Virus record (IMG/VR): IMGVR_UViG_3300032249_000050
Coordinates: 1 to 20,279 of that record
DNA: 20,279 nucleotides
Origin: a virus
Direction: 5' to 3' (one strand)
Of this stretch, positions 4,014 to 20,143 are shown piece after piece (within the stretch, counting starts at the first letter, position 1; every line of letters begins with the position of its first letter). The notes under the pieces are model-generated. The model made no database searches. It was not told the DNA's origin and worked only from the letters and a program-made list of their open reading frames with translations. The position numbers and the translations under genes were made by a program.

Positions 4014-4577
4014 ATGATTGTAATAGAAAATATTATTGAGAAACAATATCAAGATTTTATTGAGGAGCTGCTTTTTGGGGGTCAATTTCCTTGGAATCTT
4101 ATAAATGATATAACTTATGGTAATCAAAAATTAGATAGTAAAAATCAAACTCCAGGGTTAAATCATGTATTTTTTGATAGAGGTCAAGGAAATAATTATT
4201 ACCATTTAGTTTTACCAATATTACTTCAAGCATTAGGTAAGGCTAATTTAAAAATATTAGATGTAATTACAGTTAGAAGTTTTTTGCAGTTAGCCAGCCC
4301 TAATCGTAGAGAACACAATAACCCTCATGTAGATAAAGATTTCCCTCACTATGCTTTTTTGTATTATGTAAATAATTCTGATGGGGATACGTTCTTTTTT
4401 GAAGAAACAACAGAGCAAATACCCAAAAGTTCTGTTACAGAAAAAACTAAATTTGTTGTAAAAGAAAGATTTAGCCCAAAAAAAGGCACAATAGTTATTT
4501 TTGATGGTAAACAATATCATGCTAGTTCATCTCCATCAGAGGGAAAAAGATGTGTAATTAACTACAATGCAACTTAA
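4014..4577 (+). CDS. 2-oxoglutarate/Fe(II)-dependent oxygenase (prolyl-4-hydroxylase-like)
   Basis: A 187-residue double-stranded beta-helix oxygenase. The iron ligands are visible as HVD (His105, Asp107) and the distal His169 in KQYHAS; Arg179 ten residues later is placed to hold the 2-oxoglutarate carboxylate. The strand pattern DFPHYAFLYYVNNSDGDTFF and then GTIVIFDG is typical of the family. Family enzymes hydroxylate proteins, nucleobases or small molecules using O2 and 2-oxoglutarate; the substrate here cannot be told. Such genes are frequent in aquatic phages. Base composition is strikingly AT-rich: three 60-base lines (from 4021, 4201 and 4441) contain 17, 15 and 14 G+C, against 22 and 26 in lines at 4801 and 5281. 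It has no SD and starts directly at the previous stop. Composition and flanking repeats suggest a late arrival. Confidence 0.85.
   Translation: MIVIENIIEKQYQDFIEELLFGGQFPWNLINDITYGNQKLDSKNQTPGLNHVFFDRGQGNNYYHLVLPILLQALGKANLKILDVITVRSFLQLASPNRREHNNPHVDKDFPHYAFLYYVNNSDGDTFFFEETTEQIPKSSVTEKTKFVVKERFSPKKGTIVIFDGKQYHASSSPSEGKRCVINYNAT
4570..4577 (+). repeat. 8-bp direct repeat, right copy (CAACTTAA)
   Basis: Identical to 4006-4013. It ends the oxygenase gene and runs into the SD (AAGAGG) of the zinc-ribbon gene at 4587. Confidence 0.55.
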
Positions 4578-4805: not shown

Positions 4806-5225
4806 ATGTTAGGACTAGGCACAATACTTGATGTAGGAATGAAGCTGGTTGATAAATTCTTCCCTGACCCAGAGCAAAAGGCTAAAGCTCAGTTAGAACT
4901 GTTGCAGATGCAACAAAATGGTGAGTTAGCCCAGATTAATGCCGATATTGCAGAGCAACAAGAACTAACTAAACGCCAGCAATCGGATATGCTTTCTGAT
5001 TCGTGGTTGTCTAAAAACATTCGCCCAATGACTTTGATTGCTATTCTGGCTGGGTATTTTACTTTTGCCATGATGTCGGCATTTGATATGGATACTAATA
5101 AAGCCTATGTAGAATTACTAGGTCAATGGGGTATGCTCATTATGTCTTTTTACTTTGGCGGGCGCACTTTAGAAAAGATTGTAGATATGCGCACTAAAGA
5201 AAAAGAATTTAAAGATGCAAGGTAA
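4806..5225 (+). CDS. Holin, GTA_holin_3TM type
   Basis: A 139-residue protein with an amphipathic N-terminus, a long Gln/Lys/Glu-rich coiled coil (about 22-62), and then two clear membrane segments (about 75-94 and 104-119) and a charged tail. The motif SDSWLSKNIRPMTLI before the first segment is characteristic of the holin family first described in gene transfer agents (Pfam GTA_holin_3TM). It would permeabilise the inner membrane and let the endolysin reach peptidoglycan. It overlaps the endolysin gene by 11 bases, the classical lysis-pair arrangement. Only two membrane helices are obvious; the third of the family name may be the N-terminal amphipathic stretch. An internal methionine at residue 62, just before the membrane part, could serve as a second start, but no evidence for one is seen. 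Confidence 0.87.
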   Translation: MLGLGTILDVGMKLVDKFFPDPEQKAKAQLELLQMQQNGELAQINADIAEQQELTKRQQSDMLSDSWLSKNIRPMTLIAILAGYFTFAMMSAFDMDTNKAYVELLGQWGMLIMSFYFGGRTLEKIVDMRTKEKEFKDAR

Positions 5226-5733
5226 TTTTGAAGCCTGCCTAGAGAAACTTCTTGCCCACGAGGGAGGATTTGTTCACCACAAAAAAGATCCAGGCGGCAT
5301 GACTAATTTAGGAGTTACTATACGGGTGTGGGAAGAATGGGTAGGGCATCCAGTATCTGAAAAAGAAATGCGTAAACTTACCCCTCTAATGGTTGCACCT
5401 TTATATAAGAGGAAATACTGGGATGCTTGCCGAGCTGATGAGCTTATATCTGGTCTTGACTATTGCGTTTTTGATGTCGCTGTTAACTCAGGCCCAGGTC
5501 GTGCCATTAAGTTTTTACAGTCGTGTGTTGGGGCTACTCCTGATGGCGGTTTCGGTAGCATTACTCTTGCATTAGTCAAAAAAGCCGAATCTGACCCAGC
5601 TGCCCTAATAGAACTGTATTGCGCAAAACGCCTAGAGTTCTTACAATCACTTAAGACCTTTGAAACTTTTGGTAAGGGCTGGTCGAGGCGCGTTGCCGAA
5701 ATCAAAGAAGAAGCACTTAAAATGTTAGGGTAA
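5215..5733 (+). CDS. Endolysin, GH108 muramidase
   Basis: A 172-residue lysin. The glycoside hydrolase 108 signature is clear: LLAHEGGFVHHKKDPGGMTN with the catalytic Glu16, followed by LGVT. The second half (SGLDYCVFDVAVNSGPGRAI, then LQSCVGATPDGGFG) matches the peptidoglycan-binding domain paired with GH108 (PG_binding_3). The length is usual for the family. It has no signal peptide, so export depends on the holin. The start lies inside the holin gene, in a -1 frame overlap of 11 bases. It cleaves the glycan strand (N-acetylmuramidase activity by family). No Rz/Rz1 spanin gene is visible next to it. Confidence 0.9.
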   Translation: MQGNFEACLEKLLAHEGGFVHHKKDPGGMTNLGVTIRVWEEWVGHPVSEKEMRKLTPLMVAPLYKRKYWDACRADELISGLDYCVFDVAVNSGPGRAIKFLQSCVGATPDGGFGSITLALVKKAESDPAALIELYCAKRLEFLQSLKTFETFGKGWSRRVAEIKEEALKMLG

Positions 5734-5738
5734 ACCCC

Positions 5739-7943
5739 ATGCCGTTACAGAAGTTACAGTTTCGTCCAGGTGTCAACAGAGAAGGTACTGACTACTCCAA
5801 TGAGGGTGGTTGGTATGCTTGTGACAAGGTACGGTTTCGTTCTGGTTATCCTGAGAAGATTGGTGGTTGGATCCGCTTATCCAATGACACGTTTTTGGGT
5901 GTTTGCCGTATTTTGTGGAACTGGATTACTTTGGACGGATCTAACCTTTTAGGGCTTGGAACTAACCTAAAATACTATATTGAAGAAGGTGGTGCGTATA
6001 ACGACATTACCCCCATAAGAGTTACATTTACTGCAGTCTCTAGCCCAAACACGGTTAACTGCATATCAACCACAAACGGTTCTAATGTAGTTACATTAAC
6101 TATTGCAAACTACGGCGGCCTGACTAACGACTTTGTAACCATTACTGGTGCCAATGCTATTGGTACGATTACAGCTGCGGATATTAACCAAGAGCATCAG
6201 ATTACATATATTGATACTGCTAGGTTTTCGTTTGTGGTTGCAAACACAGCTAACACCACCGTGACTGCTGGTGGTGGCAATACTATAAATGTAGCCTTTC
6301 AGGTTAATACTGGCTTAGATACATTCGTTGTAGGCACTGGCTGGGGTGCAGGCACATGGCCTACTTATATTCAAACTTCATTAACTAATCCGTTTACTTG
6401 TACAAGTCCTAGCACCACAGTTACAGTAACTCAGACTGCTCACGGCCTTGCTAATGGCAACGCAGTTTATTTCAACAGCATATCTGGTAACGTTTGCGGA
6501 CAAGCATCTACCCCATTTATTAAGGCGTTTCCGATTACTGTAGTGAACGCTAATGCTTACACCTTCTCAACGGTTATCGGTGGCAATACGTACACCACAT
6601 CAAATAACGGCCCAACTGGTGGAACCGTTGTAGTTTCAACCCCCGTAGCTCCATTCCGCGGCTGGGGCGCTGCCGCTGCTGTAGGTGTTGGTCAGCAGTT
6701 ACGTCTTTGGACTAATGACAACTTTGGCGAAGACTTGCTTATTGCTCCTCGTGGCGGCTCAATTTATTACTGGGATGCAACTCTTGGTGTTTCAGAACGA
6801 GCAGTTTTGTTAAATACAGTATCTACAAACGAAGGATTTGCAGGCCAGTTTGTACCGAATACAACCAATCAGATTATTGGCTCGTCAATTCAGCGTTTTG
6901 CTATCTGTTTTGGCGCAAACCCATATGATCCAGGCGATGCTAATACAACATTTGACCCGCTTTTAGTGCGTTGGTCTGACCAAGAAAACCCCTACGACTG
7001 GGTTCCAGCCGCTACAAACCAGTCAGGTGAATACCGCCTTAACATTGGCTCGTTCATTATGTGTGCTGAATCTACCCGTCAGGAGATTTTAGTTTGGTCC
7101 GACGCCGCTATTTATTCTATGCAGTACTTAGGACCACCCTACGTTTGGGGTTTCCAGTTGTTGCAAGACAACATTTCTGTTATGGGGCCTAACGCCACTA
7201 TTACGATTAACAACGTAACTTACTGGATGGGCGTAGATAAATTCTTCTCGTACACAGGCCGTGTAGAAACCCTGCCTTGCTCGCTGTGGAAGTATGTATT
7301 TGAAGACATTAATAAAGATCAAGCGTTCCAAGTATTTGCTGGATCAAACGAAGCCTATAGCGAGGTATGGTGGTTCTACTGCTCTGAAAACAGTAACACA
7401 ATTGACAAGTACATAATTTACAACTACCTTGAGCGGGTATGGTCGTACGGCACAATGATAAGAACTGCTTGGCTTGATTCCCCATTACGTCAATACCCAA
7501 TGGCTGCATACCCAACAGACAACCGTATCCTGTACCACGAAGCTAACGTAGATGATGTATCAGGGTTAACCCCAGTAGCAATTGAATCGTATATCCAATC
7601 ATCTGACTTTGACATTGGTGACGGGCACAACTTTGGCTTTGTATGGCGCATCCTGCCAGACATTACGTTTAACGGCTCAAATGTTAATGAACCCAAGGTA
7701 GTAATGACCGTTCGCCCACGCAGGAACTCTGGAGCACAATACGGCATTTCAGACTCACCTGACGTACAAAGCGACCAGAACTACACAAATCAACGCAATT
7801 ATGACGTGCAGTTATTTGACGGTCAGGTATATACCCGCCTTCGTGGACGCCAGATGGCATTTAGGATTACGTCTACAGACTTAGGCGTAGCTTGGCAGTT
7901 AGGTAGCCCACGGATTGACATTAGAAATGATGGTAGGCGTTAA
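5739..7943 (+). CDS. Tail hub/nozzle-like structural protein (DNA-stabilisation type)
   Basis: A 734-residue protein. The N-terminus (LQFRPGVNREGTDYSNEGGW and CDKVRFRSGYPEKIGGW) and the core (LRLWTNDNFGEDLLIAPRGG around 321-340, then IYYWD) are patterns I recognise from podovirus tail structural proteins, probably beta-propeller hubs comparable in role to T7 gp12 (794 residues) or P22 gp10 (472 residues). That placement is from memory and gene order. Two beta-rich inserts interrupt the core, at about 95-195 (ending in GGGNTINVAF) and about 215-303 (with an AHGLANGNAVYF motif). The SD AGGG (5727-5730) lies within the endolysin end. The stop overlaps the next start (TAATG). By analogy it would sit below the portal and adaptor and close the channel after packaging. 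Confidence 0.65.
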   Translation: MPLQKLQFRPGVNREGTDYSNEGGWYACDKVRFRSGYPEKIGGWIRLSNDTFLGVCRILWNWITLDGSNLLGLGTNLKYYIEEGGAYNDITPIRVTFTAVSSPNTVNCISTTNGSNVVTLTIANYGGLTNDFVTITGANAIGTITAADINQEHQITYIDTARFSFVVANTANTTVTAGGGNTINVAFQVNTGLDTFVVGTGWGAGTWPTYIQTSLTNPFTCTSPSTTVTVTQTAHGLANGNAVYFNSISGNVCGQASTPFIKAFPITVVNANAYTFSTVIGGNTYTTSNNGPTGGTVVVSTPVAPFRGWGAAAAVGVGQQLRLWTNDNFGEDLLIAPRGGSIYYWDATLGVSERAVLLNTVSTNEGFAGQFVPNTTNQIIGSSIQRFAICFGANPYDPGDANTTFDPLLVRWSDQENPYDWVPAATNQSGEYRLNIGSFIMCAESTRQEILVWSDAAIYSMQYLGPPYVWGFQLLQDNISVMGPNATITINNVTYWMGVDKFFSYTGRVETLPCSLWKYVFEDINKDQAFQVFAGSNEAYSEVWWFYCSENSNTIDKYIIYNYLERVWSYGTMIRTAWLDSPLRQYPMAAYPTDNRILYHEANVDDVSGLTPVAIESYIQSSDFDIGDGHNFGFVWRILPDITFNGSNVNEPKVVMTVRPRRNSGAQYGISDSPDVQSDQNYTNQRNYDVQLFDGQVYTRLRGRQMAFRITSTDLGVAWQLGSPRIDIRNDGRR

Positions 7944-8284
7944 TGGCTGTTACCCCACTCCGTCCTTCTAAAGCACCCAATTTACTGGTTGCGCCGATTG
8001 TTTATGACCAGCGTTATATTGACCAGCTTAATAACGCCCTGCGTTTATATTTCAACCAAATTGATAACTTTACCCAGAACGTTACTGTGCCCCCATCTGG
8101 CACTACAGCAAACAGACCAACCGAGCGGCTAGAAGTGGGGCAGTATTACTTTGATACAAGCCTTGGGTATCCGATCTATTGGAATGGTGTAGATTGGGTA
8201 AATGCCCTTGGATACCCTTTGATCTTCTTAACAGGCGTAAAAACAATAGGAATAGTTGGTACTGTAACGGTTACAACGGTATAA
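7943..8284 (+). CDS. Small virion protein ending in one copy of the 22-residue repeat
   Basis: A 113-residue protein. Residues 15-45 form an amphipathic helix (DQRYIDQLNNALRLYFNQID). Residues 55-85 carry a beta motif seen in many phage proteins (NRPTERLEVGQYYFDTSLGY followed by PIYWNG). The last 19 residues (from FLTGVKTIGIVGTVTV) match the repeat consensus of the protein at 1007-1993. It starts inside the stop of the nozzle gene (TAATG), so it is translated with it. It may attach to the nozzle and bind the repeat protein or its fibre through the shared repeat. The following 42-base gap has no clear terminator or promoter. Confidence 0.7.
   Translation: MAVTPLRPSKAPNLLVAPIVYDQRYIDQLNNALRLYFNQIDNFTQNVTVPPSGTTANRPTERLEVGQYYFDTSLGYPIYWNGVDWVNALGYPLIFLTGVKTIGIVGTVTVTTV
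8225..8281 (+). repeat. Single dispersed copy of the 22-residue repeat
   Basis: It encodes FLTGVKTIGIVGTVTVTTV, which aligns with the LTGVKAVGRIGNVTVT consensus of 1079-1804 about 6.4 kb away. It forms the C-terminus of the 113-residue protein. Confidence 0.75.
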
Positions 8285-8326
8285 CAACATGATAAACTTT
8301 AACATAATTAACCCCAAGGTACGCTT

Positions 8327-9871
8327 ATGAGCCTACATACCGCAGCAAAATACTTAGAATCCCAAGGCCGGGGGAACGACAAGATGCTCGTTCATATGAC
8401 TCCTAATGAAGTCAAGGGGTTACAAAGTCTAGCTATGGCTGCTGGGGGGTCTCTCTCAATTAACCCACAAACGGGTCTTGCAGAAGCAGGGTTTTTAGAG
8501 TCTATTCTCCCAATGCTCGCAGGTGCAGGCTTAATGATGATTCCAGGAGTTGGGCCTTTAGCTGCTGCTGGTATGGTTGGGGGTGCAACTGGTATTGCTA
8601 CTGGAAGCCTAGAAAAAGGCTTAATGGCTGGCCTTGGCGCATATGGTGGTGCTGGGTTAGCAGGTAGTTTATCTAGTGCTGGGGGTTCTGCGTTAGCTGA
8701 GGCGGGGGGTAAAGCTGCTACTGATTTAGGTACTGAAGCTGTTAGTAGCAACTTAAGTGGTCAAGTTATGGATGCTAGTAGAGGCATGATTGAACCAAAC
8801 ATAACAGAAATAGCGCAAAGCACCCTTACCCCACAAAATTTCCCTAACATGACGCCAGACCAGTTAACTAGTCTTCAGTCACAAGTACCCAATATGGCTA
8901 ATCCAATGGAAGGTGTACGCGCTGCTGGTATGGCTAATGCTACTACTGACTTAACTCCAACAGCAGCTATGGGTAAAGGTCTTAGTGCAATAACTAGCTC
9001 ACCCAGTGCAGCGGGTAGCTTCCTTAAAGACAACATACTTAGTATAGGTGCTGCTGCAGTTCCAGTTTTAGCACAAGATACCCAAGATACCCAAGGCTAC
9101 CAGCCAATGACAGAAGAAGAGGAAAGCAACTTAAAACGCATTTCTCCTAATTTCAGAGCTATGCAGCCCACTACACCAAATCCATATTATCAAGCTCAGT
9201 ATCCAATGTATGCTAGTGGTGGGCCTGTAGAGCGTATGAGTCAGATGAACACAGCTTTAAACCCGCAAGGTGGTCTATATCCACAGGGCATGATTGATAA
9301 GACTCAATACGCATTACCTACTCAACGCCCAACTAGTATGGAAGTAGTAGACGCTGGCGCTCAAAGAATGTTTGCGGAAGGCGGTATCACCCGTTATGCT
9401 CCTGGTGGGGTTGCTCACTTACCTGTAAAAGGTACATACCGTGATTCTGACTCAGCTACGGCAAATAAAGATGCTTACGAAGCTGCGATGATTCGCCTAA
9501 ATAAAATTCGCAAAGGTGCTAACTTATCTAGTGTCAACATGCCTAAGTCTAATGTTAAGGGTTTGGGTGACTTACCTGAACTTGCAGCGGGAGGTAGCCT
9601 AGGAGGATATTCAGATGGTGGTCGCATGCTTAAAGGGCTTGGTGATGGTATGTCTGACTCTATCCCTGCTACGATTGGTAACAAACAACCCGCTAGATTG
9701 GCTGATGGTGAATTTGTGGTTCCAGCCGATGTAGTCTCCCATTTAGGTAATGGCTCAACTGATGCGGGTGCTAAGAAGCTCTACAGCATGATGGACAAGA
9801 TTCGCAAAGCCCGTACAGGTACAAAGAAACAAGGCAAAAAGATTAACCCTAACAAATATTTACCTGCGTAG
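8327..9871 (+). CDS. Virion protein with hydrophobic glycine-rich domain and double-glycine motifs (probable internal protein)
   Basis: A 514-residue protein. The N-terminal 40 residues are helical. Residues 55-125 are hydrophobic and Gly/Ala-rich (FLESILPMLAGAGLMMIPGV onwards), able to enter membranes. Residues 125-290 are Thr/Ser/Pro/Gln-rich. From 295 a series of short [YFL]AxGG motifs appears (Gly pairs at 298, 352, 360, 422, 426 and 431). The C-terminus has a well-conserved-looking block (GLGDGMSDSIPATIGNKQPA, then LADGEFVVPADVV and GNGSTDAGAKKLY) ending in a Lys-rich tail. I recognise this block from tape-measure-like or internal proteins of many aquatic phages. The SD AAGG (8316-8319) is 7 bases before the start. 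By order it is likely packaged in the particle and may be ejected; enzymatic motifs are not seen. Confidence 0.68.
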   Translation: MSLHTAAKYLESQGRGNDKMLVHMTPNEVKGLQSLAMAAGGSLSINPQTGLAEAGFLESILPMLAGAGLMMIPGVGPLAAAGMVGGATGIATGSLEKGLMAGLGAYGGAGLAGSLSSAGGSALAEAGGKAATDLGTEAVSSNLSGQVMDASRGMIEPNITEIAQSTLTPQNFPNMTPDQLTSLQSQVPNMANPMEGVRAAGMANATTDLTPTAAMGKGLSAITSSPSAAGSFLKDNILSIGAAAVPVLAQDTQDTQGYQPMTEEEESNLKRISPNFRAMQPTTPNPYYQAQYPMYASGGPVERMSQMNTALNPQGGLYPQGMIDKTQYALPTQRPTSMEVVDAGAQRMFAEGGITRYAPGGVAHLPVKGTYRDSDSATANKDAYEAAMIRLNKIRKGANLSSVNMPKSNVKGLGDLPELAAGGSLGGYSDGGRMLKGLGDGMSDSIPATIGNKQPARLADGEFVVPADVVSHLGNGSTDAGAKKLYSMMDKIRKARTGTKKQGKKINPNKYLPA

Positions 9872-9880
9872 GAGAACAGC

Positions 9881-10543
9881 ATGGGCGGAATGGTTTCTGG
9901 AGCAGCACAAAAAATAGGTTCAACCTCCCCTAGTGGTGGTAAATCAAGCCCAGCTCCTCAAAATGCATATGGCTCATCTTATCAAGCTCCCGCGGCAAAC
10001 GTATATCAACCTTCTTATCTCGCCCCTCAACAAGGTATGGGTGGTGGTAAATCTAGTGGTTTAGGTTCTGGTGGTTATGGTGGTGTTCCTGCATTTAATC
10101 AACAGCCTATGGGTAATATAGGGCAAGCAGTTCAAAATTTAGTTGGTGGTAAGTCTAGCGATATGGGTCAAGGAGGCTATCAATCTGCCCCCTCGTTTAA
10201 CCCGTATCAACAGCAACAATTTAACCCGTATCAACAACAGCAATTTAGCCCGTACCAACAGCAACAAGGCGTTTCTGGGTTACAAGGTTTATATAACAGC
10301 ATGATGGGTCAACAACAGCAAATGCGGCAGCCAATGCAGCGGCAGCCAATGCAACAGTATCAAGATCCAGCTTTACAATATAGACCTAGCATGCAAAACG
10401 CACAGTCGGCTTTATCTAGAGTAAGACCTAGCGTACAAAGGCAAGGGCAAGATGCGCAAGCTGCACGTATTGCGGAGTTAGAAGCTCAATTAGCAAGTGG
10501 GGGCAATTATGGTAATCCGACTTATAGCTATGATGCTGGTTAA
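9881..10543 (+). CDS. Gln/Gly/Pro-rich low-complexity virion protein
   Basis: A 220-residue protein. The GGKSS motif recurs at residues 19, 55 and 89, the last two within a longer repeat (GGKSS[GD][LM]GxGGYxxxPxFN). Three perfect eight-residue units FNPYQQQQ (the third FSPYQQQQ) fill residues 106-129, followed by a Gln/Met-rich stretch. The last 40 residues contain a short helix (DAQAARIAELEAQLAS) and a Tyr/Gly end. The SD AGGAG overlaps the stop of the previous gene. Composition resembles intrinsically disordered, prion-like sequence. No enzymatic domain is seen. Its place between large internal-type proteins suggests a virion component or assembly factor. It is possibly a fast-evolving spacer gene. 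Confidence 0.62.
   Translation: MGGMVSGAAQKIGSTSPSGGKSSPAPQNAYGSSYQAPAANVYQPSYLAPQQGMGGGKSSGLGSGGYGGVPAFNQQPMGNIGQAVQNLVGGKSSDMGQGGYQSAPSFNPYQQQQFNPYQQQQFSPYQQQQGVSGLQGLYNSMMGQQQQMRQPMQRQPMQQYQDPALQYRPSMQNAQSALSRVRPSVQRQGQDAQAARIAELEAQLASGGNYGNPTYSYDAG
10196..10267 (+). repeat. Three tandem 24-bp repeats (FNPYQQQQ)
   Basis: Units at 10196-10219, 10220-10243 and 10244-10267 encode F[NS]PYQQQQ in frame. They differ at only a few synonymous positions plus one Asn-to-Ser change, so unlike the 66-bp repeats these are a fairly recent expansion, probably variable in number between relatives. Confidence 0.9.
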
Positions 10544-10566
10544 ACAATTAACAGGAGATTTACTAA

Positions 10567-10998
10567 ATGCTACAAAGCGCTCAGTCGTTCGAGGCTAAAA
10601 AAGTTGCAGCAGAGATTTTATTAAGAGAAGTAGGTTTACAGCCATGCGGGGACTTAGAAGCCTTGTTTTGGACTGACGAAGAGAATAATATTGAGTGGGT
10701 GATAGGTTACACAGCATTTATTGGTAAGACCTGTCAGATGCATATGGTAAATCTTAAGGGCGGGTATACCCCTAAAGGTTTGTTATTTGGTGCTTTTGAT
10801 TTCCCGTTTAATTACTGCGGGTTAGAAAAAGCCTTTGGAATTGTTAATAGTCTTAATACAAAGGCTATGGAGTACGACCAGAAGTTAGGGTTTAAAGAGG
10901 CTATCCGTTTTCCTGGGATGCATGCAGACGGTGGCGATATGGTTGTTTTTGAAATGGACAAAGCTGATTGCAGATGGATCAGGGAGCATAGAAAATGA
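10567..10998 (+). CDS. GNAT-like protein, acetyl-CoA loop apparently degenerate
   Basis: A 143-residue protein. The C-terminal half (FGIVNSLNTKAMEYDQKLGF followed by EAIRFPG) matches GNAT motif B, with the usual Asn, Ala, Tyr and LGF positions and a closing strand (DMVVFEM). The acyl-CoA pyrophosphate loop (Q/RxxGxG/A) expected before it is not clear; the nearest candidate is YTPKGLLFGAF around 67-77. The SD AGGAG (10553-10557) supports the start. The stop overlaps the next start by 4 bases (ATGA). T7 gp13 is a small protein of similar size that I recall as belonging to the acetyltransferase fold and that also precedes the internal virion genes, so a structural or assembly role is as likely as catalysis. 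Confidence 0.65.
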   Translation: MLQSAQSFEAKKVAAEILLREVGLQPCGDLEALFWTDEENNIEWVIGYTAFIGKTCQMHMVNLKGGYTPKGLLFGAFDFPFNYCGLEKAFGIVNSLNTKAMEYDQKLGFKEAIRFPGMHADGGDMVVFEMDKADCRWIREHRK

Positions 10999-13865
10999 AT
11001 TTACTTGGGATGAAACGGAAGCTGTTGCCACTTAGCGGACCTATGGGCGGCGGCGGTAAAGGCGGTGGTGGTTCTCCTGGCCCTCAACAGGTTACTAGTA
11101 CAACTACGTCTTCCAATATCCCTGAGTACGCTCGTCCTTATGTAGAGAACATGCTCCAGTCTGCACAAACGCAGATTTATAACGATGACATGACAAGTTT
11201 TAGGCCATATACGCCATATAGTTCAGATCCAAACAAATACTTTGCTGGTTTTTCTCCAATGCAACAAGAGGCACAGCAAGCTGCTTATAACTTGCAAACT
11301 CCAGGTCAATTTGGATTAGGTTCTGAATTGGCAGGGCAGGCTGGTATTCAGTCTTTGGGCGCGCAACAACAAGCAAATTTTTTAGGTAATCAAGCTTTAG
11401 GTTATGGGCAAGCTGGCTCTATGTATGGTGGTGCGGGTGCCGAACAAGCAATGCAAGCCGCTCAACGTGCGCAACAACAAGCTCAAATGTACGGACGCCA
11501 AGGTGCGGGTTATGGCGCCGCCGCCGCTGGTTTATCTCCAGAAGCACAACAGTATGGTCAACAAGCTGCTAATATTGGTATGGGTGGTTTAGGTTTTGGT
11601 GCTATGGGCGCTGGGTATGGCGGTCGCGGTGCGCAAGCTGCGGAACAAGGGTTTGGTGCAGGTGCACAGTTTGCACAACAAGCTACTGATCCAAGAGCCA
11701 TCCAAGCATATATGTCTCCCTATATGCAAAATGTGGTGGACTACCAAAAAACACAAGCTGCTCGTGATTATCAGATTGCTCAACAAGCCCGTCAAGCAGG
11801 TGCCGTTGCTAAAGGTGCCTTTGGTGGTAGCCGTCAAGCTATTGAAAATGCAGAAGCTCAGCGTAACTTAATGAGTCAGTTGCAAGGCATTGAGGGTATG
11901 GGCGCACAAAAGGCGTTTGAAGATGCACAACGGCAACAACAGTTTGGCGCTAACTTAGGGCTCCAAGGATTACAAGCAGGTTATGGCGGTCTTGGCATTG
12001 GTATGCAAGGTGCTCAAACAGGGCTACAAGGGCTTGGTACTGCAATGCAAGGCCAACAAGCAGGGTTAGCTGGTTTAGGTCAAGCTGGTAGTTTGCTTGG
12101 TCAGGGTATGCAAGGTGCTGGTGTTGGCTTGTCTGGTGTGGGCCAGCAGTTAGGCGCTGGCAATCTAGGACTTCAGGGTACTGCACAGGGTATTCAGGGT
12201 GCACAAGCTGGTATGCAAGGTGTTCAAGGCGCTACTCAAGCGGGACAGTATGGTTTAGCAGGCTTAGGTCAAGCTACTCAGGCAGGGTCTGCATTAGGTA
12301 ATTTAGGCGGTCAACAACTTGGTGCTCAACAAAATATTATTAATACTCAAAGTACGCTAGGCGGACAGCAGCAGGCAATGGAACAGCAGAAGATTAATCA
12401 AGCTATCCAAGACTTTGCTACACAGCAGCAGTATCCGTTCATGCAACTGGGTATGCTCAACAACTTACTCCGTGGCTTGCCAATGCAATCCATGAGCACT
12501 CAACAATATCAAGCTGCTCCTAGCATGCTAACCCAGGGTCTGGGCGCTGCAGGTACTCTAGCTGGCGCTTACAAAGCATTTGGCGCTAAAGAAGGCGGTG
12601 TTGTTAAGGGACTTAAGGCTGGCGGGGCAGTAGCTAAATACGCTGCAGGAGGCAATACAAGCAGTGAGGTTGTTAATAGCGTTCGCGGCAAGTTAGCCCA
12701 AATGGATGAAGCTCAGCTACAGCAAATAATGAAAACATCATCAAGCCAAGAAGTTCGTGAAATGGCTGCTGAAGTGTTGATGGAAAAGAAAATGGCTATG
12801 CAGGCTGAACAACAAGCCCCGCAAGTACCAATGAGTGAAGGTATTGCAGCATTACCTGCTCCTGCTATGGACCAAATGGCTGGTGGTGGCATTGTTGCCT
12901 TTGCTGAAGGTGATTTGGTTAACGAAGAAGAAGATTTAAAGTATCAAAACATGATCCAACGCCAGCGTGAAGCTGCGGGTATTACTGGTCCAGCTAATAC
13001 AAAGTTTAAAGAGTTTTTGGCTTCCCAAGTAGGTGCTTTGCCCGGAATGAAAGAGCAAGCTAAGGGTCAGATGATGATGGACTACTTCTCTAACTTTGGT
13101 ACACAACCCGGCGGTGCACTCTTTGCTGGCCTTAAAGCAGCTAAAGAAGTTGGTCCACAATTTAAAGCAACTGCTGATAAGCTCAATAAAGCCGAAATGG
13201 ACTTGATGAAGGGTCAAGCTGATCTCGAGCAGGCCGATCGCCTTGAGAAACTTGGTTTGGTTGATAAAGCAAATGCATTACGAGATAAATACGATGAGCG
13301 TGCAGCTGCTTATAAACGCACAATGGACGCTGCTAGGATTCAAGCTCAGGCATCTATGGCTTCCGCTGCCCGTGCTACTGATTTAGATAGAGATGCTGAC
13401 GCGTACTTTAATCTGTTAGTTGGTGAAGGTATGGATCCTAAAGATCCAAAAACCAAAGCACTTGCACGTCAAAAAGCCCGTGAAGGTGCAAACCCATACG
13501 CTCAAGGCAAGCTTGATCTCCAAACCGAAGCTGCTATTACTGCTCGTGAAAAAGATGATTCTCAGCTTAAAGCCTTACGTACGCAACTTGCCATAGCGGA
13601 CGACAAAGACAAACCAAAAATTATGGCGGATATGGAAACTCGTAGACAGCAGATCCGTGCAGAAATTACCAAGCCACCTGCTCCTGGGACTACCACTCCT
13701 CCCCCTGGTGCTCCTGCTCCTGGTGCCCCTGCAAATGCACGTCCTATGGTAGCTGCTCCCCCCGCTGCTGTTGACATGCTAAAAAACAACGACACACCTG
13801 AAATGCGTAAGAATTTTGATGCTATATTTGGGGCTGGAGCCGCTGCTAAAGCGCTAGGTAAATAA
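10995..13865 (+). CDS. Large Gly/Ala/Gln-rich internal virion protein with glycine heptads
   Basis: A 956-residue protein. After a Gly-rich start comes a conserved-looking segment (IPEYARPYVENMLQSAQ, then FAGFSPMQQ). Residues 110-230 are Gln/Ala/Gly-rich. Residues 239-310 hold a block seen in many phage proteins (YMSPYMQNVVDYQ and GAFGGSR at 274-280). Residues 318-443 are about 18 heptads of the type GxxxG[LM]Q. Double-glycine motifs lie at 534, 541 and 630-632. About 720-790 is coiled coil, and 893-917 a Pro-rich linker. The end (VDMLKNNDTPEMRKNFDAIF then GAGAA) is another recurring terminal motif. The SD AGGGAG (10981-10986) supports this ATG. By composition and place it resembles ejection proteins such as T7 gp14/gp15 or P22 gp20, which form a conduit across the envelope; this is inference, no homology was tested. 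Confidence 0.65.
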   Translation: MNLLGMKRKLLPLSGPMGGGGKGGGGSPGPQQVTSTTTSSNIPEYARPYVENMLQSAQTQIYNDDMTSFRPYTPYSSDPNKYFAGFSPMQQEAQQAAYNLQTPGQFGLGSELAGQAGIQSLGAQQQANFLGNQALGYGQAGSMYGGAGAEQAMQAAQRAQQQAQMYGRQGAGYGAAAAGLSPEAQQYGQQAANIGMGGLGFGAMGAGYGGRGAQAAEQGFGAGAQFAQQATDPRAIQAYMSPYMQNVVDYQKTQAARDYQIAQQARQAGAVAKGAFGGSRQAIENAEAQRNLMSQLQGIEGMGAQKAFEDAQRQQQFGANLGLQGLQAGYGGLGIGMQGAQTGLQGLGTAMQGQQAGLAGLGQAGSLLGQGMQGAGVGLSGVGQQLGAGNLGLQGTAQGIQGAQAGMQGVQGATQAGQYGLAGLGQATQAGSALGNLGGQQLGAQQNIINTQSTLGGQQQAMEQQKINQAIQDFATQQQYPFMQLGMLNNLLRGLPMQSMSTQQYQAAPSMLTQGLGAAGTLAGAYKAFGAKEGGVVKGLKAGGAVAKYAAGGNTSSEVVNSVRGKLAQMDEAQLQQIMKTSSSQEVREMAAEVLMEKKMAMQAEQQAPQVPMSEGIAALPAPAMDQMAGGGIVAFAEGDLVNEEEDLKYQNMIQRQREAAGITGPANTKFKEFLASQVGALPGMKEQAKGQMMMDYFSNFGTQPGGALFAGLKAAKEVGPQFKATADKLNKAEMDLMKGQADLEQADRLEKLGLVDKANALRDKYDERAAAYKRTMDAARIQAQASMASAARATDLDRDADAYFNLLVGEGMDPKDPKTKALARQKAREGANPYAQGKLDLQTEAAITAREKDDSQLKALRTQLAIADDKDKPKIMADMETRRQQIRAEITKPPAPGTTTPPPGAPAPGAPANARPMVAAPPAAVDMLKNNDTPEMRKNFDAIFGAGAAAKALGK
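11946..12323 (+). repeat. About 18 degenerate glycine-rich heptads
   Basis: Residues 318-443 divide without gaps into seven-residue units such as GANLGLQ, GLGIGMQ, GAQTGLQ, GLGTAMQ, GQQAGLA, GAQAGMQ and GLGQATQ. Position 1 is Gly in most, position 5 often Gly or Ala, position 6 Leu/Met/Ile and position 7 Gln. The result is a chain of GxxxG motifs, typical of tightly packed helices. Confidence 0.78.
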
Positions 13866-13877
13866 TAAGGGGTTTAA

Positions 13878-16800
13878 ATGGCAAACCCATTTGAGCAGTT
13901 TGTAAAGCGGGAGGAAGAAAATCCTTTTGCGCAGTACGCTACACCGCAGCCAGCAACGGATGAAAATCCGTTTGCTCAATTTACTACGCCCAACCAAGAG
14001 CCAGCGCAAACAGAACCTACAGTATTTCAAAGGGTTAAAGATATTGCCGCTGCACCTATTGAAGCAATTATGGGTAAAGACGCATTTAAAGAAAGTGCTC
14101 CAACTCCATCCCCATTAAAAGGTTCTGTAAAGAAAGGCTTTTTAAACGTAGAGCAATCTGTACTACAGAATCAACTTGCTAGCTTAATGGACTTACAAGC
14201 AGCAGATAAAGAAAAATACGGTGAAACTTATCAAGCTGCGCCAGCGGATCAATTAGAAAAAATTAGTGCTCGAGATAAAACTATTCAAGATAAGTTACGT
14301 AGTGTTGCAGACTTAGGACTGCAGCGTAAAGCTATTGAAAATAAAGAAGGTGTATTTGAGCTATCAAAAAGTTTAAAAGATTTGTACTCTACCAAAGAAT
14401 ATAAGGACAGCTCTTTCTTAGATGGTTTAGGAATGATTGGTAATAAGATTGTTGAGAACCCATCTGGCATTCCTGGTTGGATAGCTGGTGTTGGTATTGA
14501 AAGCCTCCCACAATCTATGGTTACAGTAGCGGCTGCATTGGCTGCTCGCATGAGTGGTATGGGTCCTAAAGGTGCGGCTATTGCTGGTGGTGGTTCTTCG
14601 TCTTTTATGGAGTTTGGTGGCCAGTATGCCGATCTACGTGCACAGGGTTTAAGCCACGAACAGGCTTGGGAAGAAGCTGGAGTTAAGTCTGCCATTATTG
14701 GTTTGTTTGATGCGGCTTCTTTTAACGCTGCTGGTAAGTCAGCAGGTACAGTTTTTAAGAACATAGAAAAAGGCGCTCTAAAAGAAACTGTTAAAGATGT
14801 AGGTAAAGGTGTTGGCGTACAGGCTCTTTACGGTGGCGCTGGTGAAGGCTTAGGTTCTTTTGCTATTAACCAAAAAGTAGACCCAGGTGCTGTGTTAGAG
14901 GAAATGGTTGGTGAAGTATTTGGTGCACCAGTAGAAGCTGTATCTACATATCAAAATAAAAAAGCTGAAGCAGCGGGGCAAGTGCCGCCAGTACCAACAG
15001 CACGTGAGTTGATGCAGCAGCAAGGATTTATTTCACCCAAACAACAAGCAGAGACAGAACAAACTACTGAAGAAAAACCTGAGCAGTCTGTGCTCGAAAC
15101 TTCTAAAGAGAAACTATCATCTCTTGTAGATGACGTAAAAGAAACATTAGCTAGCTATCTACCAAGCAAGACGCCTGAAGCCTACGGTGAGCCTGGAGAA
15201 GTTAGTATTGAGCAATTAACCTCACGGTACAGGGGCCTTGGTCTAACTCAGGAGCAAGCACAAGAATTAGCTGTTGCTGACTTTACCGAAGCTGGCTTAC
15301 CGATAGCCACCCCTACCCCCAGTGCTGAAACTGTATCTACCCCAATGGAGGTCCCAAGTGATCGAATTGAACCTATCGCCGGAACAATTGAGCCTGGCAT
15401 TCCAGCACCTCAAATTCAAACTGAACTACAACCAATTGCCCCCGGAACTCCTGGAATTAAACCTGGAGAATTGGGTGGAGCTCTCCCACCTGCTGGACCT
15501 GTTGGAAGCGGAGAAACAGCTCAGCCGAGTGCATTAGAACCAACGGCAGAAGAAGATTTACAAACACTTAATAAGCTAAAAAGAAGACTAGCTGATGCTG
15601 ACAGAGCGGAAAGAAGGTCAGAAGATACCTATCCTAATAGCCCAACAAAGTTAAAAGTACAAAAAATTAGGGCTGAAATGGATGCTTTCTTTAATGAAAG
15701 TGAGCCAAGAAGAGCTAAAAGAATTGCAGAGCTTACTGGTCAGTCAATACCTTCTACCGATACTACAGAAGTAATAACCCCAGAGGTTGCACCTGCGCTA
15801 GAAGCAGAACCTAAGGTAGTTACTAAAGGCAAAGCAGGTCGCCCTAAAGCCGTGCTAACTCCGGAAGAAACAGCTGCTAAGAAACAAGTTAGGGCTACAC
15901 AAGTTAAAGAGTGGAAAGCAACTAATAAAGAGTTGCTAGCTGCCAGAGATGTTCTTGACCTACCAGCGCCAACTAGAGATAACTTTGCTAGTCAGGATGC
16001 GTACCTTGATTCCAGCATGCAATTTAGGGCTAACCGCAACAAGGCTTTAGATTTATTAAACGGTTTGGCTACAGGTGCTCGTCGTGACACCGCTTTGGGT
16101 AAAACTGCCAAGGAGGGTTTAGCAAACCCATCTATTACGCCACAAGAACTTGCATCGGTAAAAGAACGTGAAGCATTACGCAAAGGTACAGCCCGTTCGG
16201 AGCAGTTACTTGAATCTACTAATGGTGAAGACAATCAGGAATTTACTAAGTTTAATAACGCTAGCCAAGCAATTAGCTGGATAGCCAAGAACGGCAATGC
16301 CTTTGAGAAGTTTTTAGCTAAGCGCCTGGAGCCATTCTTACGTAACGTTAAGCTAGTAGTCGTAACTGACCCTAACACCGATATGCCCGCATCTCGTAGA
16401 CAAGACTTTGTAGGTGCTAACGGCATGTACTTTGAGTCTAAGAAAGAGCGGGTAATTTACCTCGATGCCCAAGGCGGAATTAATAACACAGTATTCCTAC
16501 ACGAAGCCCTACACGGTGCAACCCTTGCACGTATTAACCGATACTTAGATGATATTGCTGAAGGTCGTGAGCCTAACCCTAAGTTAGCTGAAGCTGTAGA
16601 AGAACTCAATGCCATTATGAAACGGGCTGGTCGGTTCTATGAAGCGCTTAAAGCAGCTAATCTTACTGATGCTCGCACGGATGAGTTTGCACGGGTTAAT
16701 GCCTTTGGTGACTTAAAAGAGTTTGTGGCTTATGGTATGAGCTCCCCTGCTCTCCAAGAGTTTTTAATGCAGCTCCCAGGTATGTACGCAGGTGCTACTA

Positions 16801-19800
16801 CTCAAGCACCACAAGGCTTATTTACACGCTTTGTTCAATCCATCCGCAAAATATTTAACATGGGTCCAGAGCATGACTCGTCCATGCAAGACCTCATTAT
16901 TGTCACTGATAAGCTACTACGTGCACCTGATGCACAGGTAGTAACCGCAGACTCCGCCGCTGCTAAGAAGGCTAAGAAAGCCGCAGAAAAGGTGGATAAG
17001 GACTTAGAAGCTATCCAAGCCTCTAACGATGCGTTCAAGGTTACTGGCGGTGTAGGCAATGGGACTGTTGAGAGAGACTTTGGTAACTTTAAAGACCTAC
17101 TTGATGCACGCTTTGCGGATATGGGTAATGGCTTTATATCTAAGACGCTATACACCATGCAGACAGCCGACATACTGCGCTGGAAGGGTGATGAGATTCC
17201 TGCTTTACTAGAGGTAGATAAGCTGCAACAACAGATGTCAGCAATGCGTACCAATATGTTAGCTGCCTCTGCCGATAAAGCAGATCAGTTAGGTGCCTTT
17301 ATTCGTAAGAACGGTATGGAAACTTTGAGCGACGCTATGCACTTAGCTCGTCTTAAAGAAGTAAGCCCAACCAAGTACACAGACCGTGCCGATGCACTTA
17401 AAAACGACACTGACATTAAGTTCTATGAAGCTAAGATTGCAGACCCCAATACAGCCCCTGCTAGCGTAGTAGGGTACAAAGGACAATTGACGCAGCGCAA
17501 AAAAGATATTGATGCTGTATTTGCCGCTTGGGAAAAGCTAGGTAAGCAAAAGGGTGGGCATGACATTTATAAGATGGTTCGTCAGTTCTACATCGACAAC
17601 TACAACCTGACCCGTAACCTATTAGATGAGCAAATCAATGAGTTGCCGATTGAACCCGCCGCTAAAGCTAACTTAATGAAGTCCATCCGCCTAATGCATG
17701 AACAGGCGGCAGTTAGAGACGACGCTACAGGTAAGAAAACCAAAGCCCTACCCGAAGAATACTTTCCATTAATGCGTGAAGGTAAATACTGGCTGCGCAT
17801 CACAGGTGGCCCCAACGGGCGTGAGTTTTGGCTGTTTGAAAATGGCGTTGACCGTAACGTGTTTTTGCAAAAACGAGCCAAGAAACTAGGCTTAAGCGTT
17901 GATGATCCTAAAATTAGTGCAGGTGATGACGTTACTACCCTACGCAAAGACTACGCTGCTGGCAGTGAGTTACTTCAAGAAATGTTTGGCACGATTGATA
18001 GCTTGGCAGTAGACCCTAAGTTTGATTCTTCTAAATTCCCCGATGCTGCAACCGCAAATCAAGCGTTTAAAGAAGAGCTTAAAGACCAGTTGTATCAGAC
18101 TTATTTAATGACCATGCCGGAGCGTAGCTACCGTAAGCAGTTCCTGCACGCTGAGAAAGTTACTGGTTTTAGCGCAGATGTATTCCGCAACTTTAAAATA
18201 TCCGCTACCAAGATTGCAAATCAAGCAGCAAAGCTAAAGTATTCAACCAAGATTTTGAATCAAGTTGATGCAGCTAGAAGCAGCTTAGACGGCATGCCAG
18301 CTCTAGAGCGGGCTAAGATGGAATTGTTTGTAAACGAGATTAGTAAGCGGGCGCAAGAAGAAATTAACCCACCTGAACAGGGTGCTTTTGTAACTGGGGT
18401 TAACCAGTTTGCGTTTATTATGTTACTAACCAGCGCTGCTTCTGCCGCTACGCAGATGGCTTCCATTCCTATTATGGTTATGCCTAACTTACAGCAAAAG
18501 TACGGGTATAAAGACTCTTCCGTTAAGCTGGCTAAGTACATGAACTTCTTGAAGTCGGTTGGGGTTACTAAACTAGACCCTAACAACGGTGATGTAACAT
18601 GGACTGCTCCTTCTATTGGTTCTTCTAGTTGGGTTAAGGCTAGCCCTATATTGCAAAAAGCATTCCAAGCAGGGCTTGAGCGAGAAGTAATGACTGGCAC
18701 AAATACAGCCGTGCTTACCAACAAGAATAGAACGCCTGATAACTCTTACTCTAGCTTGCCAGGAGTAGCAGCAAGAACCTCATTTAACGCAATGAGTGCT
18801 ATGTTCAACGGTGCAGAGCGTCTCACCCGTGAGATGACTTTTATGATGACCTTTGAGCTTGAGTACGCTAAGAGCAAAAACTTTGACGAGGCAGTGCAAA
18901 AAGCAACTGACACCACGCACGAAACTTTAGGTAGGTATGACAGCTTCAACCGCCCACGCATTCTAAGAAACGCATTTGGTAAGACCGTTGGTCAGTTTAA
19001 GATGTACTCCGTTTATATGACTTCGTTCTTCATGCGCAATTTCTACAACTCTATTCGTATCAGCATACCTTTAGCAGAAAGAGCAGCGGCTATGCAGCGT
19101 ATGGCAGGGGTTTTAGTTATGGGTGGTATGTTCCACGGCTTAGTGGGTATGCCTTTGTACGGTGTAATTACCGATACAGTTGATGCCATGTTGGATCAGT
19201 TTGGTGACGAAGAAGAGAAAAAGCAACGACGTGCTAAGAACCCATTGACTTCTGACAACTCCAATTTACGGTTCCGCTATGAGTTTTTACCTGAGAATTT
19301 TGGGCATATTGAAATAACTGGATTAGATGGGCGTAAACATAGACTAAGTGAGTTACTTGAAAAAGGGCCTATTTCTGCGCTTACTGACATTAACATTGGT
19401 TCCCGTACCTCGTTTGATGGCATGTGGTTTAGAGATCCTAATCCCGGTAAAAATTGGACCGAAACAGCAATTAACATTGCAACCTCTAACTTGGGTCCGG
19501 GTGTATCCACAGGTTTAAATTTAGCCCGTGGTATTGATGATCTTAGCAAGGGTGAAATATTACGTGGGCTAGAAAAGCTTGTGCCCGCACTTTTTAGAAC
19601 TCCTATTACTGCATACCGTATTGGTACTGAAGGCGCCGAAACTACCAAGGGTGCAGACATGTTATCTCGTGATGAGCTTAACAACCGCAACATAATTGCC
19701 CAGGCTATTGGTTTTCCTCCTACTAGATTAGCTCGTATTCAAGAGCAAAGTTTTGAGTCACAAAAAGAAGTAAGGAAAGCCCAAGACCGCCGAGCAAAAA

Positions 19801-20054
19801 TATTGGATGGTTTGCATCGTGTTGCGTTTGACCCTGAGGGTAACAAGGCAGACTTGAAAGAAGTTTTTGAGGATATTAAAAACTACAACCGCAGATACCC
19901 AATTGATAAGTACTTAATTGACATTGATACAATCGAGCGTTCTTTAGAAACTTATGCCAATAAACGTGGCATGACATACCGTGGTCAGGTAATCGAAGAG
20001 AAACTTGCCCCATATCTAGGCCCACTCTATAGAGCTACGGTACCCCTAAAGTAA
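13878..20054 (+). CDS. Giant internal/ejected multidomain protein with HExxH metalloprotease-like site
   Basis: A 2058-residue protein. The N-terminus has three NPFxQ[FY] motifs (residues 3, 15, 30). Residues about 190-360 form a Gly/Ala-rich domain (from GWIAGVGIESLPQSMVTVAA). Then come disordered acidic and Pro-rich linkers (365-560), a charged coiled coil (565-625), and an AT-hook-like KAGRPKA (652-658). Residues 790-1030 look like a zincin: HEALH at 875-879 (His875, Glu876, His879) with a candidate third ligand Glu948 in KEFVAYG. The region 1030-1500 is largely helical. The C-terminus (1500-2050) has hydrophobic segments at 1511-1535 and 1743-1764 and resembles the LPD-type domains of phage polyvalent proteins, possibly LPD38; this is from memory. 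The SD AAGGGG (13867-13872) supports the start. Genes of this kind encode proteins injected with the DNA, but that is inference here. The gene ends immediately before the convergent terminator. Confidence 0.68.
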   Translation: MANPFEQFVKREEENPFAQYATPQPATDENPFAQFTTPNQEPAQTEPTVFQRVKDIAAAPIEAIMGKDAFKESAPTPSPLKGSVKKGFLNVEQSVLQNQLASLMDLQAADKEKYGETYQAAPADQLEKISARDKTIQDKLRSVADLGLQRKAIENKEGVFELSKSLKDLYSTKEYKDSSFLDGLGMIGNKIVENPSGIPGWIAGVGIESLPQSMVTVAAALAARMSGMGPKGAAIAGGGSSSFMEFGGQYADLRAQGLSHEQAWEEAGVKSAIIGLFDAASFNAAGKSAGTVFKNIEKGALKETVKDVGKGVGVQALYGGAGEGLGSFAINQKVDPGAVLEEMVGEVFGAPVEAVSTYQNKKAEAAGQVPPVPTARELMQQQGFISPKQQAETEQTTEEKPEQSVLETSKEKLSSLVDDVKETLASYLPSKTPEAYGEPGEVSIEQLTSRYRGLGLTQEQAQELAVADFTEAGLPIATPTPSAETVSTPMEVPSDRIEPIAGTIEPGIPAPQIQTELQPIAPGTPGIKPGELGGALPPAGPVGSGETAQPSALEPTAEEDLQTLNKLKRRLADADRAERRSEDTYPNSPTKLKVQKIRAEMDAFFNESEPRRAKRIAELTGQSIPSTDTTEVITPEVAPALEAEPKVVTKGKAGRPKAVLTPEETAAKKQVRATQVKEWKATNKELLAARDVLDLPAPTRDNFASQDAYLDSSMQFRANRNKALDLLNGLATGARRDTALGKTAKEGLANPSITPQELASVKEREALRKGTARSEQLLESTNGEDNQEFTKFNNASQAISWIAKNGNAFEKFLAKRLEPFLRNVKLVVVTDPNTDMPASRRQDFVGANGMYFESKKERVIYLDAQGGINNTVFLHEALHGATLARINRYLDDIAEGREPNPKLAEAVEELNAIMKRAGRFYEALKAANLTDARTDEFARVNAFGDLKEFVAYGMSSPALQEFLMQLPGMYAGATTQAPQGLFTRFVQSIRKIFNMGPEHDSSMQDLIIVTDKLLRAPDAQVVTADSAAAKKAKKAAEKVDKDLEAIQASNDAFKVTGGVGNGTVERDFGNFKDLLDARFADMGNGFISKTLYTMQTADILRWKGDEIPALLEVDKLQQQMSAMRTNMLAASADKADQLGAFIRKNGMETLSDAMHLARLKEVSPTKYTDRADALKNDTDIKFYEAKIADPNTAPASVVGYKGQLTQRKKDIDAVFAAWEKLGKQKGGHDIYKMVRQFYIDNYNLTRNLLDEQINELPIEPAAKANLMKSIRLMHEQAAVRDDATGKKTKALPEEYFPLMREGKYWLRITGGPNGREFWLFENGVDRNVFLQKRAKKLGLSVDDPKISAGDDVTTLRKDYAAGSELLQEMFGTIDSLAVDPKFDSSKFPDAATANQAFKEELKDQLYQTYLMTMPERSYRKQFLHAEKVTGFSADVFRNFKISATKIANQAAKLKYSTKILNQVDAARSSLDGMPALERAKMELFVNEISKRAQEEINPPEQGAFVTGVNQFAFIMLLTSAASAATQMASIPIMVMPNLQQKYGYKDSSVKLAKYMNFLKSVGVTKLDPNNGDVTWTAPSIGSSSWVKASPILQKAFQAGLEREVMTGTNTAVLTNKNRTPDNSYSSLPGVAARTSFNAMSAMFNGAERLTREMTFMMTFELEYAKSKNFDEAVQKATDTTHETLGRYDSFNRPRILRNAFGKTVGQFKMYSVYMTSFFMRNFYNSIRISIPLAERAAAMQRMAGVLVMGGMFHGLVGMPLYGVITDTVDAMLDQFGDEEEKKQRRAKNPLTSDNSNLRFRYEFLPENFGHIEITGLDGRKHRLSELLEKGPISALTDINIGSRTSFDGMWFRDPNPGKNWTETAINIATSNLGPGVSTGLNLARGIDDLSKGEILRGLEKLVPALFRTPITAYRIGTEGAETTKGADMLSRDELNNRNIIAQAIGFPPTRLARIQEQSFESQKEVRKAQDRRAKILDGLHRVAFDPEGNKADLKEVFEDIKNYNRRYPIDKYLIDIDTIERSLETYANKRGMTYRGQVIEEKLAPYLGPLYRATVPLK
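16500..16514 (+). other. HExxH zinc-binding motif in the giant protein
   Basis: Codons 875-879 encode HEALH, preceded by a hydrophobic strand and helix start (RVIYLDAQGGINNTVFL). Glu948 (codon at 16719-16721) in DLKEFVAYG, 69 residues after the second His, is the likely third ligand, giving a gluzincin-like order. Metal binding is predicted, not shown. Confidence 0.62.
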
Positions 20055-20076
20055 AAAATCCCCGCACTAGGCGGGG
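20053..20076 (-). terminator. Intrinsic terminator for leftward transcription
   Basis: Read on the - strand: a perfect 6-bp GC stem (CCCCGC / GCGGGG, bases 20060-20076) with a five-base loop, then A and six T residues (complement of 20053-20058). On the + strand the stem is followed by ACAAAG and not by T, so it is a poor terminator in that direction, unless the upstream A run allows partial function. It overlaps the stop codon of the giant gene. Confidence 0.78.
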
Positions 20077-20143
20077 ACAAAGAGTTGGAAGGAGCTAACT
20101 TCCGAGAAAAGCAGATGAGACGTCTGCCTGCCCAAAGTATAAG
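20077..20143 (-). other. Probable 3' untranslated region of the convergent gene
   Basis: No coding frame of note in these 67 bases. They hold weak hairpins, GCAGA/TCTGC (20111-20127), which includes the 8-bp palindrome AGACGTCT (20118-20125), and GGAAG/CTTCC around 20084-20104. None is followed by a T tract. No promoter or tRNA was seen. Confidence 0.4.

Follow-up and report, generated by a model that had tools for sequence, protein, structure and literature searches.

The window, by which we mean the whole stretch of DNA analyzed, is a 20,279-base IMG/VR virus record in its own right. An ORF listing with translation confirmed an ATG-initiated ORF for a giant protein of 2058 aa at 13878..20054 on the plus strand, as given in a preliminary description of this DNA; all features of this protein described below lie on the same strand. 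Directly 3' of the stop codon is a GC-rich, terminator-like inverted repeat (CCCCGC...GCGGGG; 20055-20080). Upstream of the giant gene, and also on the plus strand, are the genes for a 956-aa Gly/Ala/Gln-rich protein (10995..13865) and a 514-aa Gly-rich protein (8327..9871); among 83 relative loci, 65 have a homologue of the former and 60 of the latter. The 956-aa protein weakly matches a PHROG for "DNA ejection protein" (0.0064) and is probably a second ejection or virion protein, and the 514-aa protein is probably a further virion protein of the set. The giant gene together with these two Gly-rich genes appears to resemble the three-gene ejection sets of podoviruses. Based on homologues and gene order, the giant protein is probably packed in the head and then injected into the bacterium. 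Just upstream of the 956-aa gene lies a gene for a GNAT-like acyltransferase (10567..10998, plus strand; PHROG 4470, 5.5e-20), and Parlo and Atu_ph08 each have a similar gene close to that for the giant protein. Elsewhere in the window, a 2OG-Fe(II) oxygenase-like gene at 4014-4577 (Pfam, 25.5 bits versus a cut-off of 27) lies slightly upstream of the GH108 endolysin gene (5215-5733).

In searches with the entire giant protein, Pfam returned only DinB_2 at 0.077, which we dismissed as a chance match, and recognized no second enzyme domain; a transglycosylase domain was matched by neither Pfam, PHROG nor NCBIfam. A single-sequence PDB search gave only EcoRI, and a relation to EcoRI was rejected at an E-value of about 2. 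A search of the genome-contig collection returned no confirmed relative. Residues 1294-2042 (17757..20003) form a C-terminal PLxRFG/tail-700 module that matched NCBIfam NF032893 ("tail-700, PLxRFG") at 5e-91, with 306 bits versus a curated cut-off of 100, and the DarB-like PHROG 10089 at 1.7e-52. The structural model of this module was of moderate quality (pLDDT 75.5), PDB Foldseek with this model gave no significant match, and sequence searches found no solved homologue of the module. N-terminal to it, residues 1096-1263 (17163..17666) form an LPD39-like region (large polyvalent protein associated domain 39), for which Pfam PF18858 scored below the cut-off in the window protein itself (18.7 of 27 bits) and matched 25 of 28 relatives, at best with 3.3e-16.

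Further upstream, residues 787-1020 (16236..16937) constitute a zincin-like metallopeptidase domain based on profiles, alignments, an AlphaFold model and PHROG 2206. The preliminary description had pointed to HEALH at residues 875-879 (His875, Glu876, and His879; 16500..16514) and to Glu948 in KEFVAYG (16719..16721); both are present in the translation, and Glu948 is the predicted third metal ligand. HEALH is the single HExxH in the 2058-aa protein, for which 0.006 such motifs are expected from the composition (13 His and 157 Glu). A tblastn search with the zincin region recovered the DarB-like giant of Serratia phage Parlo at 2e-5; N4-like virion RNA polymerases and T7-like internal virion proteins also matched, at weak E-values. 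HExxH was in register in all nine aligned phage proteins, and the invariant columns of this alignment were only five, i.e., H875, E876, H879, E948, and one Leu, with the six most distant proteins sharing 20-24% identity with the window protein. A scan of IMG/VR with the zincin family identified 291 relatives, and H875, E876, H879, and E948 were invariant across a non-redundant alignment of 51 sequences. Because this quartet is conserved, and given the low expected number, we excluded a chance origin of HEALH.

Because the pattern used in that scan contained HExxH, we repeated the recruitment with the C-terminal module alone, which gave 69 relatives with enough upstream sequence, a set that partly overlaps the zincin-recruited one. 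The zincin domain was present in 66 of these 69, and all 55 distinct aligned domains kept H, E, H, and E. This motif-free recruitment rules out that the conservation is an artefact of HExxH-based recruitment, and the conservation of HExxH among homologues, which the preliminary description had proposed as a check, held. These data support that residues 787-1020 are a real domain with a strictly constrained predicted catalytic quartet.

An AlphaFold2 model of residues 771-1040 based on 51 sequences (pLDDT 87.1, pTM 0.80) contains, in order, a helix, three strands, the HExxH helix (model residues 100-124), inserted helices, and the Glu helix (model residues 176-185), with Glu948 (model residue 178) near the start of the latter. 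This predicted order matches the MPTase core of Iyer et al. (PMC5512222). The convergence of His875, His879, and Glu948 anticipated in the preliminary description is borne out in this model at the level of zincin topology only. With the quartet invariant and a zincin topology modeled, the earlier proposal of a zincin-type site with a downstream Glu inside a large virion- or ejection-type protein is supported. PDB Foldseek of the model gave no significant match, with MATCAP and ZMPSTE24 appearing only at E-values of about 0.5-3. In a viral structure library, internal core proteins, N4-like virion RNA polymerases (vRNAPs), and polyvalent proteins matched with E-values down to 1.2e-9, including phage Ab05 core protein at 1.1e-7. 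In comparisons of the profile with PDB sequences, we found the internal virion protein 9sfn_G (3.1e-26), PhiM1 gp48 (8vb2_A; 5.1e-12), the virion RNA polymerase 11fw_A (4.5e-8), and gp10 (23sg_S; 3.5e-7). Because 9sfn_G has 1337 residues, which is the length of phiKMV gp37 (PMC8954989), we take it to be a phiKMV-like gp37. The window zincin also matched PHROG 2206 ("virion RNA polymerase") at 1.5e-20 over profile positions 2021-2259, and hhalign of the window zincin against the N4 vRNAP domain gave 97%.

An alternative is that the HExxH domain has no protease function and is either a structural relic or a different kind of HExxH metal enzyme. The N4 vRNAP authors cite HExxH domains of radical-SAM/alpha-ketoglutarate enzymes, and a term search of the N4 structure paper, which mentions the motif, returned no report of zinc or protease activity. 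However, Glu876 and Glu948 are as invariant as the histidines, which is the gluzincin pattern, whereas a relic would drift, and the viral structure matches include, weakly, M34 endopeptidase, SprT-like, and IrrE-like zincins (E-values of 0.04-0.4). We therefore regard a non-protease domain as highly improbable.

Since the zincin matches PHROG 2206 and the C-terminus has PLxRFG/DarB-like matches, both halves of the giant are of the polyvalent type. Judged by its sequence, the window protein belongs to the phage-type polyvalent proteins that contain a zincin-like MPTase, a class described by Iyer et al. (2017; PMC5512222), and we are highly confident that domain, homology, invariant active site, and family are jointly established for it. 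It has in common with the proteins of Iyer et al. the giant size, the MPTase HExxH with a downstream Glu, LPD39, PLxRFG C-terminal parts, and variable other domains; unlike those proteins, it is without a Pfam-recognizable second enzyme, and no domain was assigned to its N-terminal half. The preliminary description had regarded a protease at this place as a different strategy from the transglycosylase of T7. This reading fails because polyvalent proteins with a zincin are a known class, and zincin-like domains are in fact the commonest domain among them (PMC5512222); the window protein adds a member, not a strategy. These results confirm a predicted zincin-type enzyme domain in an uncultivated phage.

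Virion RNA polymerases of the N4 type and T7-like internal virion proteins also contain a domain of this zincin clade. The C1 HExxH domain of the N4-type virion RNA polymerase gp50 is homologous to the window zincin; unlike gp50, the window protein has no RNA polymerase domain, and its C-terminus is PLxRFG/tail-700 and, as far as shown, not N4 C2-type. The phiKMV/PhiM1-type gp16 equivalents (9sfn_G and 8vb2_A) have the same HExxH...E domain as the window protein but are shorter (1263-1337 aa) and have no C-terminal sequence match to it. The DarB-like/PLxRFG giants of podoviruses of the Bcep22, F116, and Parlo types share the C-terminal module and are mostly longer (2588-4844 aa among those examined); the annotation is methylase, helicase, or transglycosylase for several of them, and some have another HExxH or none. 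The Parlo giant also has this zincin, apparently, as judged by eye, alongside a transglycosylase-like N-terminus. T7 gp16 is the largest ejected protein of T7 and probably resembles the window giant in role, but it has an N-terminal transglycosylase, and no sequence relation to the window protein was seen; gp16 was rejected as the closest family, the nearest being the PLxRFG/DarB-like polyvalent family. A single, strictly conserved active site therefore connects ejection proteins of three kinds that had been studied separately.

In PhiM1 gp48, residues 268-528 were assigned as endolysin/exotransglycosidase-like (PMC11440229), and the HExxH...E zincin maps to residues 379-513 of this protein (8vb2_A) by profile. 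Several homologue records are labeled "internal virion protein with endolysin domain" or "lytic transglycosylase". The gp48 assignment and these database labels may be misassigned, and the PhiM1 domain as well as the "endolysin domain" records merit re-examination as zincins.

Comparison with relatives supports a modular organization. From about residue 700 onward, the window protein is 97-100% identical to its closest relative, L005, save for one block of 87%; over residues 1-400, identity is 22-30%, and a segment at about 560-660 differs as well. These comparisons argue that the N-terminal part has been swapped between close phages, while the zincin and the C-terminal part stayed fixed. By eye, the L005 protein (7653-13883) has a ParB-like segment (GHEGRHRAM) at about residues 530-620 that is missing there from the window protein; on the alignment, this difference is a cassette swap between otherwise nearly identical proteins. 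The corresponding part of the window protein (residues 361-780; 14958..16217) is partly low-complexity and differs among relatives, and a hydrophobic Gly/Ala-rich stretch precedes it (about residues 195-300; 14460..14777), as identified by sequence and composition. Relative L006 shares about 47-50% identity with the window protein over the common core and is longer by about 1000 residues; the added sequence includes a second HExxH and, as judged by eye, a HATPase-like stretch. Pfam over the relative set gave one HATPase match, and ART-PolyVal in one relative. Residues 652-663 of the window protein (15831..15866) form an AT-hook-like GRPK...TPE motif; a GRP...T(P)E motif precedes the zincin in 20 of 41 family proteins, by about 96-173 aa (mostly 135-142), and could possibly contact DNA.

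The N-terminus contains a tandem motif in three copies (13878..13982), i.e., ANPFEQF (residues 2-8), EENPFAQY (residues 13-20), and DENPFAQF (residues 28-35), and none of 100 shuffles reached its score in a self-repeat test. A significant tandem motif was present in the first 70 residues of 30 of the 41 family proteins compared with 13 of 201 internal control windows, although the 30 overstates independence because some of the 41 proteins are closely related. The repeat sequences vary by phage (ENPFxQY, FVPLEE, DGWETI, EWWQAAPL, YTPEELG, and others), while their position is constant. The first 30 residues of P1 DarB suffice to package a reporter (PMC9024508), and therefore a repeated packaging motif is a guess worth testing; the tandem motif would be a candidate multi-copy packaging or docking signal. 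Mass spectrometry of podovirus JC1 virions detected a DarB-like giant (PMC9144972), whose kinship to the C-terminal family of the window protein is taken from the family name.

We suggest the following sequence of events. The giant would be made as one chain and packed in the head with the two Gly-rich upstream proteins, probably via the N-terminal repeated motif, and would then be ejected into the host. His875, His879, and Glu948 would hold zinc, and Glu876 would activate water. After ejection, limited proteolysis at flexible linkers would separate the LPD39/PLxRFG part, the zincin, and the variable N-terminal part from one another, or would instead act on the partner ejection proteins, and the cut parts would be free to reach different places in the host. 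For the window protein, we infer packaging, injection, zinc, cleavage, and substrate alike, and we give about even chances to the proposal that processing by the zincin takes place after ejection and is directed at the injected polypeptide itself or at its partners. We are not aware of a conserved motif for cleavage within the linkers of the giant. The literature consulted describes no member of this zincin clade with demonstrated protease activity, metal, or cleavage site.

The timing of such cleavage is informed by two systems. P1 DdrB, which has an MPTase, is proteolytically processed before packaging (PMC5512222), in line with the alternative that the zincin trims itself or other internal proteins in the head, before or during packaging. 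In contrast, N4 vRNAP, which belongs to the same clade as the window zincin, is packaged unprocessed (PMC5512222), and the purified full-length protein showed no degradation (PMC12633501). Cutting before ejection is therefore unlikely, with in-head trimming improbable in our judgment, and we tentatively favor cutting after ejection.

The main rival to processing of the injected polypeptide is a host target: much as the preliminary description had suggested, the injected zincin would act in trans on an envelope, periplasmic, or defence protein of the host. This rival ranks first because the domain occurs in T7-like phages, where there is little cargo: self-release makes little sense in T7-like internal virion proteins without obvious cargo, and PhiM1 gp48 places the domain on an envelope-crossing ejectosome. 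However, no host target is known, and phages with widely differing hosts retain the domain, although defence targets are variable. We consider a host target possible but rather unlikely. Equally tentative is a broader reading in which the ejection machines of podophages would generally include a working zincin protease that cuts a host or ejectosome protein after ejection, with phages that lost this clade keeping another zincin. That reading would span N4-type polymerases, phiKMV/PhiM1-type gp16 equivalents, and PLxRFG giants, in some cases mis-annotated as endolysins or transglycosylases, and it too strikes us as doubtful. Coliphage N4 now offers a way to test the 2017 prediction that the HExxH domain of vRNAP has protease activity.

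Three of the 69 relatives recruited with the C-terminal module are without this zincin and instead carry HELGH, HEASH, or HETLGH ahead of that module; HExxxH is a variant of MPTases among polyvalent proteins according to Iyer et al. (PMC5512222). The presence of another HExxH or HExxxH in these relatives suggests, as a lead from three cases, that the putative activity itself, beyond the particular domain, is under selection. The HEASH of one relative, L153 (residue 1711 of its giant ORF), resembles the second HExxH of L006 (HELGH), which is located at about 12543-12557 (residue 1617 of the stop-to-stop frame) and is accompanied by the HATPase-like stretch. We note that, by eye, both motifs have a His six residues further on, a metzincin-like spacing.
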